From: Natronococcus sp. CG52
GTDB lineage: Archaea > Halobacteriota > Halobacteria > Halobacteriales > Natrialbaceae
Length of the DNA stretch: 64,000 nt
NCBI RefSeq assembly: GCF_023913515.1
Contig: NZ_CP099391.1
Span: 1,736,001 to 1,800,000 of the forward strand
Direction of reading: 5' to 3'
Positions 5,389 through 46,121 of the stretch are shown one piece after another. Position 1 is the stretch's first letter. Every line of letters starts with the position of its first letter. The translations under genes and the position numbers were made by a program. The notes under the pieces were generated by a model, which saw nothing but the letters and a program-made list of their open reading frames with translations, searched no databases and had not been told where the DNA came from.

Positions 5389-6276
5389 ATGGCAGCTTCG
5401 GAATCCCCTTCGCAGAATGGCGTTCCGGCAATCGATGTCGAGGGTGCCACGTGGACCGTCGAAATCGACAGCGGTCAGTTCCCCGTCCTCGATCACGGGG
5501 AAGGCCCGGCCGTTCTCCTACTTCACGGGTTTCCGGACTCTCGGTACCTCTGGCGGTACCAGGCGCCCGCGCTGGCCGACGCCGGATTTCGAGTGATCGC
5601 GCCGGATCTGCGGGGGTTCGGCGACGCGCCGAAGCCCGAAGCGGTCGAGGCGTACGCGCTGCCCGACGTTCTCGACGATATCACGGATATCGCGGTCGAA
5701 CTGGACCTCGAGACCGTCAGGCTCGTCGGCCACGACTGGGGATCGGACGTCGCGTGGCTGCTGGCGGCCACCCGGCCGGAGTTCGTCGAGCGGCTGGTCG
5801 CGCTGTCGGTCGGGGCGCCGGGCAACTCGCGATCCCGGACGATCGAACAGCGCGAGCGCTTCTGGTACGCGTACTTCTTCCTGTTCGAGGGGGTCGCCGA
5901 AGCGTGGCTGCGACACGACGACTGGCGGTTGTTCCGCGAGTGGACGCGGGAACAGGGCGACCAGGAGCGCTACCTCGAGGACCTCTCCCGGCCGGGAGCG
6001 CTCACGGCGGGGCTCAACTGGTACCGGGCGAACTTCACCCCTCGCCCGCCGTCGGAGCGCGGCGCGGACTATCCGAACGTGACCCGCCCGGTGCTCGGCG
6101 TCTGGAGCGACGGCGACTTCGCGCTCACCGAGGACCACATGATTGGCTCCGAGGAGAAGGTCGATGGTCCGTGGCGCTACGAGAAGCTCACCGGTGCCGG
6201 CCACTGGATGATGCTCGACAGGCCGGCCGAACTGAACGCCCTCCTCGTCGAATTCACCGACGGGAGAACAGCTTGA
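5389..6276 (+). CDS. alpha/beta hydrolase of the epoxide hydrolase/haloalkane dehalogenase type
   Basis: A soluble 295-aa hydrolase. The oxyanion-hole motif HGFPDS is near residue 46. The nucleophile elbow reads GHDWGS with Asp116, where esterases would have Ser, and the catalytic His272 lies in GAGHWMM. An Asp nucleophile with HGFPDS is typical of soluble epoxide hydrolases and haloalkane dehalogenases; the substrate cannot be told. A WYRANF-type cap-domain string lies before the last third, as in epoxide hydrolases. Its 3' end overlaps the convergent DUF998 gene by 23 nt. Confidence 0.88.
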   Translation: MAASESPSQNGVPAIDVEGATWTVEIDSGQFPVLDHGEGPAVLLLHGFPDSRYLWRYQAPALADAGFRVIAPDLRGFGDAPKPEAVEAYALPDVLDDITDIAVELDLETVRLVGHDWGSDVAWLLAATRPEFVERLVALSVGAPGNSRSRTIEQRERFWYAYFFLFEGVAEAWLRHDDWRLFREWTREQGDQERYLEDLSRPGALTAGLNWYRANFTPRPPSERGADYPNVTRPVLGVWSDGDFALTEDHMIGSEEKVDGPWRYEKLTGAGHWMMLDRPAELNALLVEFTDGRTA

Positions 6277-6946
6277 TCGCCGTCAGTTCTATCCAGAGCA
6301 GCGTCCAGACGACGAAGGGACGTTGGAGTGCGCCGTTCGGGGATTCACCCGGCTCGAGCGGGACGGCGAACAGAGCGACGAACCAGCCCGAGAATAGCAG
6401 TAGAAGCAGGACGCTCCACCACCGGGTGATCCGGGCGTACCCGTCCCACCGGGAATCGGTCGCCATTCTGAACGAAACGACGTACATTCCGGCTGCGAGC
6501 GAGAGGAACCCGATCAGCACGAAGCCGATGTGAATCAGGTTGATGGGGGCCGTCGACTCTAGATCGAGGGGCGTTGCACCGGTTCCGACCGTCGCGAACA
6601 GTCCAAACGCCGCGACGAGGCCGGGCCCCTTCGTCGATCCGTTGCCGCCACCGATGTCTCGGTGCAGTCCGACGGCGAACGCGACGATGAGAAGCCCGGC
6701 GACGATCATCACCGCATTAAAATACGTGGCGTACGGCGCGCCCTGCGCGCCGAGTTCGCTGAGCGTGTTCGCCGCGTGGCTGTAATTCGGCGTCAGCATC
6801 GCGAGAACGAGTGCCGAAAGCAGTATCGATGCCGGTGCGACCATCCCACACAGCGCCAGTACTCGTTGTGCGGGGTCGGTCGATAGATCGACGGTTCGGA
6901 TGCTCCCACCGACGGGTTTCTTCGGTTTTTCAGGTTCGCTCGTCAT
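6254..6946 (-). CDS. DUF998 family integral membrane protein
   Basis: A 230-aa membrane protein with about six hydrophobic helices after a 25-residue charged N-terminus. The string NTLSELGAQGAPYATYFN in the first loop is characteristic of DUF998 proteins. Its function is unknown. It converges on and overlaps the upstream hydrolase. The next 386 bp (6947-7332) hold no gene or repeat that I can support. Confidence 0.8.
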   Translation of the reverse strand: MTSEPEKPKKPVGGSIRTVDLSTDPAQRVLALCGMVAPASILLSALVLAMLTPNYSHAANTLSELGAQGAPYATYFNAVMIVAGLLIVAFAVGLHRDIGGGNGSTKGPGLVAAFGLFATVGTGATPLDLESTAPINLIHIGFVLIGFLSLAAGMYVVSFRMATDSRWDGYARITRWWSVLLLLLFSGWFVALFAVPLEPGESPNGALQRPFVVWTLLWIELTAIKLFSRR

Positions 6947-42452: not shown

Positions 42453-42800
42453 CTATTCTGCGTCGCCGAGGGTTTCGGCTAGCTCGCCGCGTTCCTCGAG
42501 TTCCTCGAGGATGTCAGAGCCGCCGACGAACTCGCCGTCGACGAACGTCTGCGGAATCGTTTCCCAGTCGCTGCGCTCCGACAGCGCCGCGCGGTACTCG
42601 TCGAGGGACTCGAGAACGTCGACCGTCTCGTACTCGTCGCGGTGCTGGTCGATCAGTCCGAGCGCTTTCCGGGAGTAGCCACACTGCGGCATCAGTTCCG
42701 TTCCCTTCATGAAGAGAACGACGTCGTTCTCCTCGATGGTCTCCGCGACCTGCTCGTCGACTTCTTCCTGATCGAGACCCTGGTTCGGTGGGAAGTCCAT
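42453..42800 (-). CDS. monothiol glutaredoxin-like protein
   Basis: A 115-aa thioredoxin-fold protein. The active site is CGYS in GTELMPQCGYSRKAL, close to the CGFS of monothiol glutaredoxins, which carry and deliver Fe-S clusters. The cis-Pro loop IPQTFVDGEFVGGSDIL binds the thiol cofactor. Haloarchaea use gamma-glutamylcysteine rather than glutathione, and a gshA gene lies elsewhere in this window. It is followed on the same strand by nothing closer than 118 nt. Confidence 0.9.
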   Translation of the reverse strand: MDFPPNQGLDQEEVDEQVAETIEENDVVLFMKGTELMPQCGYSRKALGLIDQHRDEYETVDVLESLDEYRAALSERSDWETIPQTFVDGEFVGGSDILEELEERGELAETLGDAE

Positions 42801-42984: not shown

Positions 42985-43452
42985 TCAGTCGGCGGCCGTC
43001 GCCGGAGCGCGGCTGTCGGCGCGCGCCGACCGCCAGAATCCCTGAACGTAGGCTCCGACGAACATGCCGGCGATGCCGTAGAGAACGAAGATGTTACCGA
43101 CGCCGAGGCTGGCGTAGGCCGCGCCGGGACAGATCCCCGACAGTCCCCAGCCGACGCCGAAGATGCCGCCGCCGCCGACCACGTTCCTGTCGAGCGTCTT
43201 CAGCCGACGGCCGTAGACTGCGCCGGTCAGCGGCGCCCGACCGCAGAACTGCTTGACGCCGAAGAACACGATTCCCGTCACGACCGCGGCGCCGAGCATC
43301 ACGAACAGCAGGCCGAGATCCGAAAGCTGCAGGAAATTCAGGACGACCTCCGGCTGAGCCATGTGGCTGAAGCCGAGTCCGAAGCCGAAGATCAGCCCGC
43401 CGACGAAGACCAGCGGCAGGAACAGCGAGTGTTGCTCGTGTTCGGCGCTCAT
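42985..43452 (-). CDS. YeeE/YedE family sulfur-compound transporter, half A
   Basis: A 155-aa membrane protein with four or five helices. Family motifs KQFCGRAPLTGAV and GLSGICPGAAYAS carry the conserved cysteines that pass thiosulfate through TsuA/YeeE. At half the length of bacterial YeeE, it should work with the adjacent second half as a pair. It lies 157 nt downstream of that gene on the same strand. Confidence 0.88.
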   Translation of the reverse strand: MSAEHEQHSLFLPLVFVGGLIFGFGLGFSHMAQPEVVLNFLQLSDLGLLFVMLGAAVVTGIVFFGVKQFCGRAPLTGAVYGRRLKTLDRNVVGGGGIFGVGWGLSGICPGAAYASLGVGNIFVLYGIAGMFVGAYVQGFWRSARADSRAPATAAD

Positions 43453-43582
43453 TGCTCACACCTCCGGTGTCGTCGGTGTTCGTGGCTCGCGGCTCGCGGT
43501 TCGCTTCGCTCATCGCTCACTGTTCCGAGATTTTCGCGCTGCTCAAATCCCGCGGCTCGCGTTGCTCTCCGCTCGCTTCTCC

Positions 43583-43604
43583 GGGATTCTCGCGCGAGAA
43601 TCCC
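43583..43604. repeat. perfect 22-bp palindrome between the two yeeE genes
   Basis: GGGATTCTCG followed at once by CGCGAGAATCCC is its own reverse complement, with no loop. It lies just past the stop of the upstream yeeE gene (minus strand) and may be an RNA hairpin that sets relative expression, or a protein site. Confidence 0.55.
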
Positions 43605-43609
43605 GCTCA

Positions 43610-44170
43610 TCACGGGCTCACCCCCAGCGCCTGTACTAACTGAGCCACTCCGATCGCGATCAACAGGAAGGTCGCGACGCCGACGAAGGATGCGCTCGAG
43701 GCGGATCCGACGCCGCAGACGCCGTGGCCGGAGGTACAGCCCTTCCCGAGACGGGTTCCGATCCCGATGAGGATGCCGCCGACGAACAGCCGCCAAGGCT
43801 GGACGTCCGTCAGCCAGATCGTGAAGCCGCCGATCTCCCGGAATTCGCCCGCCGTTGCGGGCTGGTGGAGCGAGCTCCCGACGAGCCCGCTCTGAAACGT
43901 GGCGGCGTAGATCGCCGCTCCGGCGACGATTCCGAGCGTGAAGACGACGCGCCAGTCTCGGGAGGGACGATACTGCTGGAACCGCGAGAGACTCGAGCCG
44001 TACGAGAGCGTCGACTCGAGGAACGTGCTCGCCCCGACGGGGATGCCGGTCCCGAGGTAGATCACGGCGGTCCCGACTCCGACCAGCAGCCCGCCGATCG
44101 CGTAGTGGCTGATCCCGTTCGGGAACAGCTCCGCGAGGACGGCGACGACGAGTCCTATTGCTGTCATCAT
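43610..44170 (-). CDS. YeeE/YedE family sulfur-compound transporter, half B
   Basis: A 186-aa membrane protein with about five helices. The motif RLGKGCTSGHGVCGVG is the YeeE cysteine signature. An early loop (GTGIPVGASTFLESTLSY) and RDWRVVFTLGIVAGA resemble the first half of bacterial YeeE. It is the promoter-proximal gene of the pair. ATG 44170 and ATG 44167 are adjacent; either could be used. Likely role: thiosulfate or a similar sulfur species uptake (family inference). Confidence 0.88.
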   Translation of the reverse strand: MMTAIGLVVAVLAELFPNGISHYAIGGLLVGVGTAVIYLGTGIPVGASTFLESTLSYGSSLSRFQQYRPSRDWRVVFTLGIVAGAAIYAATFQSGLVGSSLHQPATAGEFREIGGFTIWLTDVQPWRLFVGGILIGIGTRLGKGCTSGHGVCGVGSASSASFVGVATFLLIAIGVAQLVQALGVSP

Positions 44171-44416
44171 TCCGAAGAATGAGGTGCCGGCGTATCAATC
44201 CACCGGATCGGTAGAAATCGCCCGTATCTCGGACGCTCGTGACGGTTCCGACTCCCAGCGGGTCGTGAGAGCCGAGGCAGTCTTCCATCTCGTCTGATAC
44301 GAAATCTCGGAAGAGCCCTCCGGCCACCGGTAGAACGATCCGTTTGATTCTGGTCGATGACTTCAAATGATTTAACTCGTTTTTTTCTTCGTCTGGTTTC
44401 AAACACCGGTAGACAA

Positions 44417-45103
44417 ATGGCTCATTCGAACGCCTCTCGGAGACGAGTGTTAACGCGTGGCGCCGGAATTCTCACACTCGCATCTGCGGGATGTCTCGAC
44501 GAGGAAACGGAGAGCGACGAGCAGGAGACTCTCGAAGCGGACGACGGGAGCGACGATGACTCGCACGACCAGGAGGACGGTGACTCCCACGATCACAGTC
44601 ACGATACCGATCACGAGTTGGGCCAACCCCAATCCGAGATCGAAATCGAGATGACGGTGAACGACAGCGGCGAACACTTTCTCCCACACGTCGTTCACGT
44701 CGAACCGGGCGGCACCGTCGAGTGGGTGCTAGAGAGCGGAAGCCACGATACCGTTGCCTACCATCCGGATACCCACGGGAGCCAACAGCGAATCCCTGAC
44801 GATGCCGATCCCTGGGAGAGCGAACTGTTAGCTGACGGCGGCGAGACGTTCGAACGAACGTTCGAGGTGGACGGCGTCTACGACTACGTCTGTACCCCGC
44901 ACGAGGAAACCGGAATGGTCGGCACTATCGTCGTCGGTTGGCCGGATCCGGCCGAACAACCGGGCCTGGAGCCGCCCGCTGACAATCTCCCGGATACCGC
45001 GATCGAACAACTCGAGCGCTACAACGAGCAGGTCCGCGAATTCCTCGAGAACGAAGACGACCACGACGATCATGACGACCACGGTGACCACGACGATCAC
45101 TAG
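44417..45103 (+). CDS. halocyanin-like blue copper lipoprotein with His/Asp-rich arms
   Basis: A 228-aa exported type I copper protein. A Tat motif plus lipobox (RRRVLTRGAGILTLASAGC) anchors it outside. The cupredoxin domain has all four ligands: His110, Cys159, His162 and Met167 (the last three in YVCTPHEETGM). It is flanked by an N-terminal arm rich in His and Asp (DSHDHSHDTDHE, about 52-65) and a C-terminal tail of DDH/DDHGDH repeats, both likely metal-binding. It should carry electrons in respiration; the arms could collect copper or other metals. It is divergent from the yeeE pair. Confidence 0.9.
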   Translation: MAHSNASRRRVLTRGAGILTLASAGCLDEETESDEQETLEADDGSDDDSHDQEDGDSHDHSHDTDHELGQPQSEIEIEMTVNDSGEHFLPHVVHVEPGGTVEWVLESGSHDTVAYHPDTHGSQQRIPDDADPWESELLADGGETFERTFEVDGVYDYVCTPHEETGMVGTIVVGWPDPAEQPGLEPPADNLPDTAIEQLERYNEQVREFLENEDDHDDHDDHGDHDDH

Positions 45104-45196
45104 TCAACGCCGCTTCTTCGGGAGACCCCCTCTAGTCGTCGGTTCTTGCGAACGCTCTCGAGACGGCACTCAACCGAACCGGTGCGTACGTACCCG

Positions 45197-45994
45197 TTAC
45201 TCCGCCGTGTTCGAGGTCGAGAGGACGTCGAGCTTTTCTGCGGCGTAGCCGAAGACGTCCTGATAGCCGTTCGAGGACATGAGAACGGGGTAGAACGGCT
45301 CGTTCGCGACCTGTTTCTGGCCGTCGGCGGCGGCGAACGCGTCGCCGGGGTCAACCTCCGTGAAGTTCTCGACGAAGACCTCGTAGGTGTCGGCCCGATC
45401 CTTGTGGATACACTCGACGAGCCGGTACACGGGGAGATCGCGGCCGACCGTATCGCCGGGAAGCGCGCCGACGGCGGTCAGGAACGCTCGAGTGAGCCGA
45501 TCCGCGTTCTGTGCGGCGGTCTCCGATCCCTGAAGGCCGCACTCGACCTCGAGGGTTTCGATCTCGGAGAAGAGCCGTCCTTCCGCGAAGTTGCTCGTCT
45601 CGACCATCGCCTGGACGGGAAGCTGCGGACAGATCTCCTTGGCCGTCTCGGTCACCTCGTTGACGATAGCGAACGGTTCCGCGTGGCTCTGCGTGGAGTG
45701 CATCGAGAACGAGAGACAGCCCTCGAGTTCCTCGACGAGTTGGTGAGCGAGTCGTCCTTCGTGGGTCTTCGCGTTCGGATCGCCGGGGAACGCGCGGTTG
45801 AGGTCCTCGTCGACGAACCGTACCCGTCGCTCGAGTGCCTCCTCGTTCACGACGACGAGTTTGATAGGACGGTCGACGGTCGGGTTCTCGTCGAGAAGCC
45901 GCTCGATAGCGCGAACGCCGCAGGGTTCGTCTCCGTGAATCCCCCCGACAACTGCGATTTCCGGCGTTCCCGACCCGAGCTGTGCAACTTTCAT
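45197..45994 (-). CDS. succinylglutamate desuccinylase/aspartoacylase family zinc deacylase
   Basis: A 265-aa M14-like hydrolase. The zinc motif HxxE is seen in VVGGIHGDEPCG, and the second zinc His in SFSMHSTQS. An Arg/Asn pair in EDLNRAFPGD and a catalytic Glu in TLEVECG complete the site. It should remove an acyl group from an amino acid. ATG 45994 (MKVAQLG) is chosen; the longer reading looks non-coding. No amino-acid catabolic genes are adjacent, so the substrate is open. Confidence 0.87.
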   Translation of the reverse strand: MKVAQLGSGTPEIAVVGGIHGDEPCGVRAIERLLDENPTVDRPIKLVVVNEEALERRVRFVDEDLNRAFPGDPNAKTHEGRLAHQLVEELEGCLSFSMHSTQSHAEPFAIVNEVTETAKEICPQLPVQAMVETSNFAEGRLFSEIETLEVECGLQGSETAAQNADRLTRAFLTAVGALPGDTVGRDLPVYRLVECIHKDRADTYEVFVENFTEVDPGDAFAAADGQKQVANEPFYPVLMSSNGYQDVFGYAAEKLDVLSTSNTAE

Positions 45995-46121
45995 TACCTG
46001 TGTTACGAACTTCGGCCTCAAATGCGATTCGGTCCGGAAGAACAGTCGCTGAAACCACAGGGATCCGATTTGGTGTCGCAAGGCGACGCACGGGACGACG
46101 CGGGATTCGAGGGCGCGCTCG

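Follow-up and report, generated by a model that had tools for sequence, protein, structure and literature searches.

Within a 64,000-nucleotide stretch of the Natronococcus sp. CG52 genome (the window), we found the gene for a blue copper protein whose modelled fold makes lipid-anchored, pseudoazurin-type halocyanin its most fitting name, and which carries a His/Asp-rich arm on either side of its cupredoxin core. Comparable arms appear in several families within the class, and the His-armed halocyanin is a widespread and, it seems, previously undescribed form of an electron carrier already known. Within the open-access literature, we found no description of a His-armed halocyanin or of a His-rich haloarchaeal copper lipoprotein. 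The coordinates of all features are given in Table 1.

Cupredoxin core, predicted membrane anchor and arms of the window protein

An alternative in-frame ATG lies upstream of the gene start, at 44357, and would give a protein of 248 aa. We prefer 44417 because it places RRR, which we take to be a Tat motif, and ASAGC, which we take to be a lipobox, at the N-terminus; the orthologue in genome G094, as read, agrees with this choice. Residues R8, R9, A24, G25 and C26 are invariant in an alignment of the window protein with 41 locus proteins (alignment A2, n = 42). With a Tat motif and a lipobox ahead of the domain, the protein is a halocyanin in the broad sense, with lipidation predicted at Cys26 of the lipobox. 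For the halocyanin of Natronomonas pharaonis, mass spectrometry fits a lipid-modified N-terminal Cys, according to a section of PMC2945643.

A complete copper site had been claimed in the preliminary description, and all four type-1 ligands could be read at codon level (H110, C159, H162 and M167, with a C-x2-H-x4-M loop). The domain matches Pfam Copper-bind (PF00127) at 53.1 bits, with a cut-off of 21.2. Scores stayed below the cut-offs of the NCBIfam models for halocyanin (TIGR03102, 54.7 versus 93.8 bits), pseudoazurin (TIGR02375, 37.3 versus 109.85 bits) and plastocyanin (TIGR02656, 58.2 versus 87.85 bits), as did the match to the NCBIfam amicyanin model. TIGR03102 matches 42 of the 42 proteins in alignment A2 at E ≤ 0.001.

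AlphaFold2, run with alignment A2 as input, returned block-mean pLDDT values of 93–98 for residues 71–210, of 50–69 for residues 1–70, and of 73 and 60 beyond residue 210, and placed a C-terminal helix at residues 193–215. The predicted model has a pseudoazurin fold, that is, a cupredoxin with a C-terminal helical extension. In structural comparison it lies closest to pseudoazurins (Z 17.9, 1.7 Å, 121 of 123 residues, C-terminal helices included), with model residues 73–207 aligned to residues 1–123 of the 1pmy chain (Z 17.9). Pseudoazurins cover the model from residue 72/73 to residues 204–210 at 22–30% identity, while plastocyanins reach Z 14.1 and their alignment ends at residues 174–175. 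We use the name pseudoazurin-type halocyanin because the matches run through the C-terminal helices, where plastocyanins have already stopped. The protein is pseudoazurin-like in fold and is not filed as a pseudoazurin, since it misses the TIGR02375 cut-off.

Like halocyanin of the N. pharaonis type (TIGR03102), the window protein is a haloarchaeal, lipobox-bearing member of the plastocyanin family and a presumed one-electron carrier. It differs from that type in its sub-cut-off TIGR03102 score, in a C-terminal extension resembling that of pseudoazurin and in its two His-rich arms; the family model served as the reference for this comparison. With pseudoazurin it shares the fold, C-terminal helices included, and the same ligand loop, but low sequence identity and the missed cut-off set the two apart. 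To our knowledge, a lipid anchor and arms are not part of pseudoazurin.

His/Asp-rich arms with DH/DDH strings had been described on both sides of the cupredoxin domain, and we locate them at residues 26–68 and in the last 25 residues, the latter with 5 His and ending in DDHDDHDDHGDHDDH. Together, the arms hold 10 His in 68 residues, an excess over the 2.4% His of seven other window proteins (binomial p = 5.8 × 10−6). Against shuffles of the window protein itself, the arm His total gives p = 0.025 and the densest 15-residue His stretch p = 0.18; these self-shuffle values are weaker because the core is His-rich as well. The codon pattern H-D-[D/H]-H-D-[D/H]-H, which was modelled on the window tail itself, occurs once in the 4.74-Mb genome, at this tail, and 0 times in the reversed control. 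Half of the arm residues (34 of 68) are Asp or Glu, and the model suggests that the arms are probably disordered. Stronger evidence than these composition tests comes from the recurrence of the arms among homologues.

Table 1 Positions of the halocyanin features and neighbouring genes in the window
Feature	Position	Strand	Basis
Halocyanin-like (pseudoazurin-type) blue copper lipoprotein	44417..45103	+	ORF, 228 aa plus stop; PF00127
Tat-type signal peptide (RRR, residues 8–10) up to lipobox ASAGC	44417..44494	+	Sequence; invariant columns
N-terminal arm, residues 26–68; His-rich part SHDQEDGDSHDHSHDTDHEL, residues 49–68	44492..44620	+	5 His in 43 aa; low pLDDT
Cupredoxin core, residues 72–174	44630..44938	+	Pfam match, codon reading, AlphaFold2 model
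Ligand codons	His110 44744–44746; Cys159 44891–44893; His162 44900–44902; Met167 44915–44917	+	Direct codon reading
C-terminal helical extension as in pseudoazurin, residues 178–215	44948..45061	+	AlphaFold2 model, structural alignments
His/Asp tail DDHDDHDDHGDHDDH, residues 214–228	45056..45100	+	Sequence; pattern once per genome
Half-size YeeE/YedE-type transporter A (YeeE_A), neighbour	43610..44170	−	PF04143, 36.8 bits, cut-off 27
Half-size YeeE-type transporter B (YeeE_B), DUF6691, neighbour	42985..43452	−	PF20398, 65 bits, cut-off 27
Monothiol glutaredoxin, neighbour	42453..42800	−	PF00462; TIGR00365, 106.4 bits, just below cut-off 117.1
AstE/AspA-type deacylase, right edge of the block after YeeE_A in relatives	45197..46021	−	PF24827; synteny
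YeeE_A–AstE interval with halocyanin	44171..45196	.	Among examined loci, common only to the window and G094

Arms and copper ligands among the homologues

We compared 124 homologues, comprising the window protein and the proteins of 123 loci, a non-random set drawn largely from the highest-ranking hits, with weaker hits excluded. Also excluded were L007 (the same gene as L073), L008 (bare, with Met replaced by Ala), and L009 and L010, which are more distant, lack a His arm and carry what appears by eye to be a C-terminal membrane-like segment. Counts of arm His split into 0–1 and 3–13, with the value 2 absent, and 72 of the 124 proteins are armed (at least three arm His). At least two His are present in both arms in 40 of the armed proteins, in the N-terminal arm alone in 23 and in the tail alone in 9; the N-terminal arm was left unscored in L049, L061, L138, L143 and L159, which have no recognised lipobox. 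All seven members of clade A, to which the window protein belongs, are armed, with 3–6 His per arm. The tree is a quick one built from few columns (24 of its 118 inner branches are starred), and we therefore use the clade names A, A2 and B provisionally.

Several homologues are larger proteins. L050, L053 and L056 are of ~330 aa, with a second domain of ~130 aa, bearing by eye a YMFxxD-type motif, before the armed halocyanin domain. As read, L049 (1,141 aa) and L061 (859 aa) combine a sugar-dehydrogenase-like part, two cupredoxin-like stretches and terminal repeats, all recognised by eye. An apparent NirK fusion in L156 and L160 (542/543 aa) was an artefact of start choice.

The arms might simply be ordinary acidic, flexible halophilic linkers whose His residues have no metal role. 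Their high Asp/Glu content, low model confidence and variable length among homologues fit such linkers, as does a self-shuffle p of just 0.025. However, aligned arm His is conserved at 76% (68–82% over 50 draws), compared with 59% for Asp/Glu/Gly, in 25–26 disjoint armed pairs (Fisher median p = 4.6 × 10−8, a value that is optimistic because residues inside one pair are not independent). His conservation in the arms also exceeds that of Ser, Thr and Asn, and linkers of more than 25 aa in bare relatives are nearly free of His (0.4%). We consider it quite unlikely that the arms are linkers of this ordinary kind.

Ligand columns were read in all 124 homologues. The armed proteins comprise 71 with the set HCHM and one with HRHM (L006), whereas the 52 bare proteins comprise 21 HCHM, 15 HCHN, 6 HCHA, 3 HCHG and 3 HSYA, with one each of QCHA, HSNA, HCHL and HCHS. 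The axial Met is lost in 0 of 72 armed versus 31 of 52 bare proteins (Fisher p = 1.2 × 10−15, kinship ignored); without the five lipobox-less rows, the counts of kept and lost Met are 72/0 versus 16/31. All 31 losses fall in two bare groups, clade N (22 of 22) and clade C (9 of 18), and the Met is kept in all 12 bare proteins outside them. On the tree, the association between arms and Met is not significant (four independent starred pairs, sign test p = 1). We regard it as suggestive only, because it involves few clades and just four independent pairs on starred branches. Arms are not needed for keeping the copper site, since 21 bare homologues have an intact one.

Individual departures from the canonical site were also seen. 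In L006 (Natrinema versiforme JCM 10478; match 6001–6405), the Cys codon reads CGT (Arg) where the close relative L043 has TGT; this change in an otherwise intact armed orthologue would be either a real loss or a sequencing error. In the clade N cupredoxins (for example, L165, L149, L147 and L144), the axial Met is replaced by Asn in 15 of 22 and otherwise by Ala, Gly or Ser, and an insertion precedes the Cys (YVDTQQVCTSHE). Clade N possibly represents a non-classical copper site in a denitrification-linked operon. In the armless clade C, three homologues have lost Cys, His and Met together (HSYA) and a fourth reads HSNA (L052, L055, L057 and L034); these are likely copper-free cupredoxins with a kept role.

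Genomic context: YeeE, copper genes and NirK

The gene was initially described as divergent from paired half-size YeeE genes, from which a link between sulfur-compound uptake and electron transfer had been suggested. The divergent position is as described, with the halocyanin on the + strand and both YeeE genes on the − strand, and L041 in G094 shows the same gene order (amidohydrolase–DUF7110–glutaredoxin–YeeE_B–YeeE_A–halocyanin–AstE–DUF309). A halocyanin working with the adjacent YeeE pair to couple sulfur-compound uptake to electron transfer would be consistent with this adjacency in two genomes, and with L076, an armed homologue of another clade with a YeeE pair (63–64% identical) ~6 kb away. 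The wider comparison argues against it. We examined 21 other YeeE loci with long flanks: besides L041, there were 20 (L111–L130; good matches, not a random sample), and in 0 of these 20 does a halocyanin lie between YeeE_A and AstE. Conversely, YeeE lies within 5 kb at only 2 of the 124 halocyanin loci (the window and L041), although a YeeE_B protein is present in 119 of the 125 family genomes. Synteny with yeeE in relatives had been set beforehand as the test of the link, and a conserved pairing is nearly absent.

The site itself also accommodates other genes. The tblastn matches to YeeE_A and AstE are ~70–270 bp apart in 16 of the 20 loci and 0.9–1.3 kb apart in L113, L114, L115 and L120, and the gap is filled by a response regulator in L113 (7021–8290) and by a DUF502 protein in L120 (6323–7260). 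Since unrelated genes occupy the same site in other genomes, insertions may be tolerated in this gap. At L115, a halocyanin of another kind lies on the opposite side, 10.7 kb from YeeE_B. Alignment A1 of the interval covers G094 and four genomes without it. In G090, the nearest relative at the YeeE block (93–95% identical), the halocyanin is missing, which implies that the gene was lost there or that its history is more complex. Orthologues at 70–76% identity sit in another conserved neighbourhood; those of genus g16 (L042–L045) share other neighbours, including prephenate-dehydrogenase-like and flavin oxidoreductase genes, and YeeE was not found at the locus of the g16 orthologue L006.

A coupling to the YeeE pair is thus largely refuted, and we hold it to be very improbable. 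Because the YeeE–AstE block is conserved without the halocyanin, its orthologues lie elsewhere and so few halocyanin loci have YeeE nearby, the position beside the YeeE pair is best read, from these gene orders, as incidental. We also noted that 157 bp separate the two YeeE halves (43453–43609), a spacer that contains an imperfect repeat. Other relatives have a far shorter one (in L041 the matches lie 7 bp apart). We rejected a specific disruption because G090 matches the spacer at 89% identity and segments of it are also present between these two genes in further relatives.

For each gene family, one or two representatives were used to look for neighbours of the homologues within 6 kb; at 6 of the 124 loci, the flank on one side is shorter than 3 kb. 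Among the 60 armed loci outside clades A and A2, a small HTH gene is near 32, DUF7521 near 31, a copper P1B ATPase near 14 (608.6 bits against TIGR01511 for the representative) and NirK near 2, with at least one of copper ATPase, HTH gene and DUF7521 near 37. The armed halocyanin repeatedly forms a set with a small HTH protein and a DUF7521 membrane protein (for example, L164, L208 and L214). None of these three families lies within 6 kb at the seven clade A loci (window included), the five clade A2 loci or the 20 YeeE control loci, and the same holds at these loci for all neighbour families scored for other clades. No upstream motif shared by clade A was seen by eye beyond the similarity between the window and G094.

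The bare, Met-less clade N (n = 22) lies near genes for Sco (21), a redoxin (20), NirK (18) and a CcdA-like membrane protein (16), a name that we chose for the last of these in the absence of any Pfam or NCBIfam match; a P1B ATPase (5 of 22) and an HTH gene (4 of 22) also occur. By order alone, these genes resemble an H. mediterranei operon of cupredoxin, SCO, thioredoxin-family and cytochrome c biogenesis genes, which a passage of PMC11218638 reports as induced in denitrification. The bare clade C (n = 18) lies near HPP (18), an FxLYD-domain lipoprotein (17), an unmatched 360-aa protein (17) and a PspA-like protein (16), with gene order kept beside the HPP, FxLYD-lipoprotein and PspA-like genes. 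The P1B ATPase is near 1 of the 12 other bare loci; given this and its presence in clade N, it is not specific to armed proteins.

The window's own genome encodes a copper P1B ATPase (L221) with a His-rich stretch, DHDDHADRHDRERDHGAHVDHSDHEG, near its N-terminus. L221 is like the window protein in having a DH/DDH-rich stretch in a copper protein, and unlike it in being a membrane transporter without a cupredoxin; the stretch would presumably sit on the cytosolic side. Alternatively, the arms may mainly bind surplus Cu (or else Zn or Ni) on the outside of the cell, as a metal buffer or resistance device, with electron transfer secondary or unrelated. The copper ATPase, DUF7521 and HTH genes near other armed relatives and the His-rich stretch of L221 are in line with it, as are two H. 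mediterranei operons of halocyanin/plastocyanin, transmembrane protein and multicopper oxidase genes, for which the authors of an RNA-seq study (PMC11218638) give copper homeostasis as the probable role. However, all but one of the armed proteins keep all four redox ligands, for which a protein that only soaked up metal would have no use, and clade A lacks a copper-gene neighbourhood. On balance, we find a mainly protective role somewhat unlikely. The original suggestion of metal-binding arms is plausible, in that arm His is conserved, the arms recur and a copper-type context accompanies many armed relatives, but such a context does not extend to the window protein's own clade.

Halocyanins are discussed as possible NirK donors in passages of PMC7754194 and PMC11218638. 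A dependence of clade A on NirK is not supported, as the window genome (G000) has no NirK over the cut-off. Among the seven clade A genomes, G000 and G068 have only a sub-cut-off match and G077 has split pieces under the cut-off, while the other four have one or two matches over it, that of G094 with one internal stop. On C16 and C26 of G077, the NirK matches are fragmented at two places, suggesting decayed or frame-shifted copies.

Proposed role of the arms

We propose that the window protein carries electrons while tethered to the membrane and that its arms gather or buffer copper, a reading to which we give about an even chance. The protein would be exported by the Tat route and held by its lipid on the outer face of the membrane. 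The N-terminal arm would double as the tether between lipid and core, and the C-terminal arm would hang off the pseudoazurin-like C-terminal helix. Weak, reversible binding of Cu(II)/Cu(I) by the arms, as we infer, would raise the local copper level in the brine between membrane and S-layer; the arms may thereby supply or buffer the type-1 site of the same protein (self-metallation) and perhaps also lower free copper. The core would shuttle single electrons from membrane donors to an acceptor. Because the window genome is without NirK above the cut-off, this partner is more likely another acceptor than NirK.

The folded copper domain of the chaperone PcuC/PCuAC is cupredoxin-like. Like the window protein, PcuC/PCuAC joins a folded copper domain to a disordered, His-containing tail; unlike it, PcuC/PCuAC is bacterial, has a Met/His rather than a His/Asp tail and binds copper at a two-His/two-Met rather than a type-1 site, as set out in sections of PMC12860648. 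There, the authors suggest that the disordered Met/His-rich tail may aid copper incorporation, and in the crystal structure described the tail is without copper coordination (PMC12860648). By analogy, the PcuC tail is both a warning and a precedent for the idea that arms load copper.

More broadly, blue copper proteins that load themselves might form an undescribed family spanning the class, in which His arms and type-1 site would work as one functional unit and the arms would serve as an inbuilt metallochaperone in brine. Armless lineages beside Sco/NirK (clade N) or HPP (clade C) would have lost the axial Met, sometimes the whole site, and gained a different, perhaps chaperone or non-redox, role. 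We think this extension unlikely.

Passages of PMC8305020 describe halocyanin as the haloarchaeal one-electron carrier that replaces cytochrome c, and electron flow in many bc1-less Natrialbales as unresolved; as of 2020, a single halocyanin had been purified, according to a section of PMC7754194. The observation of His arms is sound and its first interpretation was partly right; the variant itself, while apparently not described before, is unexotic. Homologues with and without arms, some with the site intact and others with it decayed, exist in nature and offer material for comparison. If the arms load or buffer copper, the supply of copper to exported blue copper proteins in saturated brine would have a simple explanation that can be tested.
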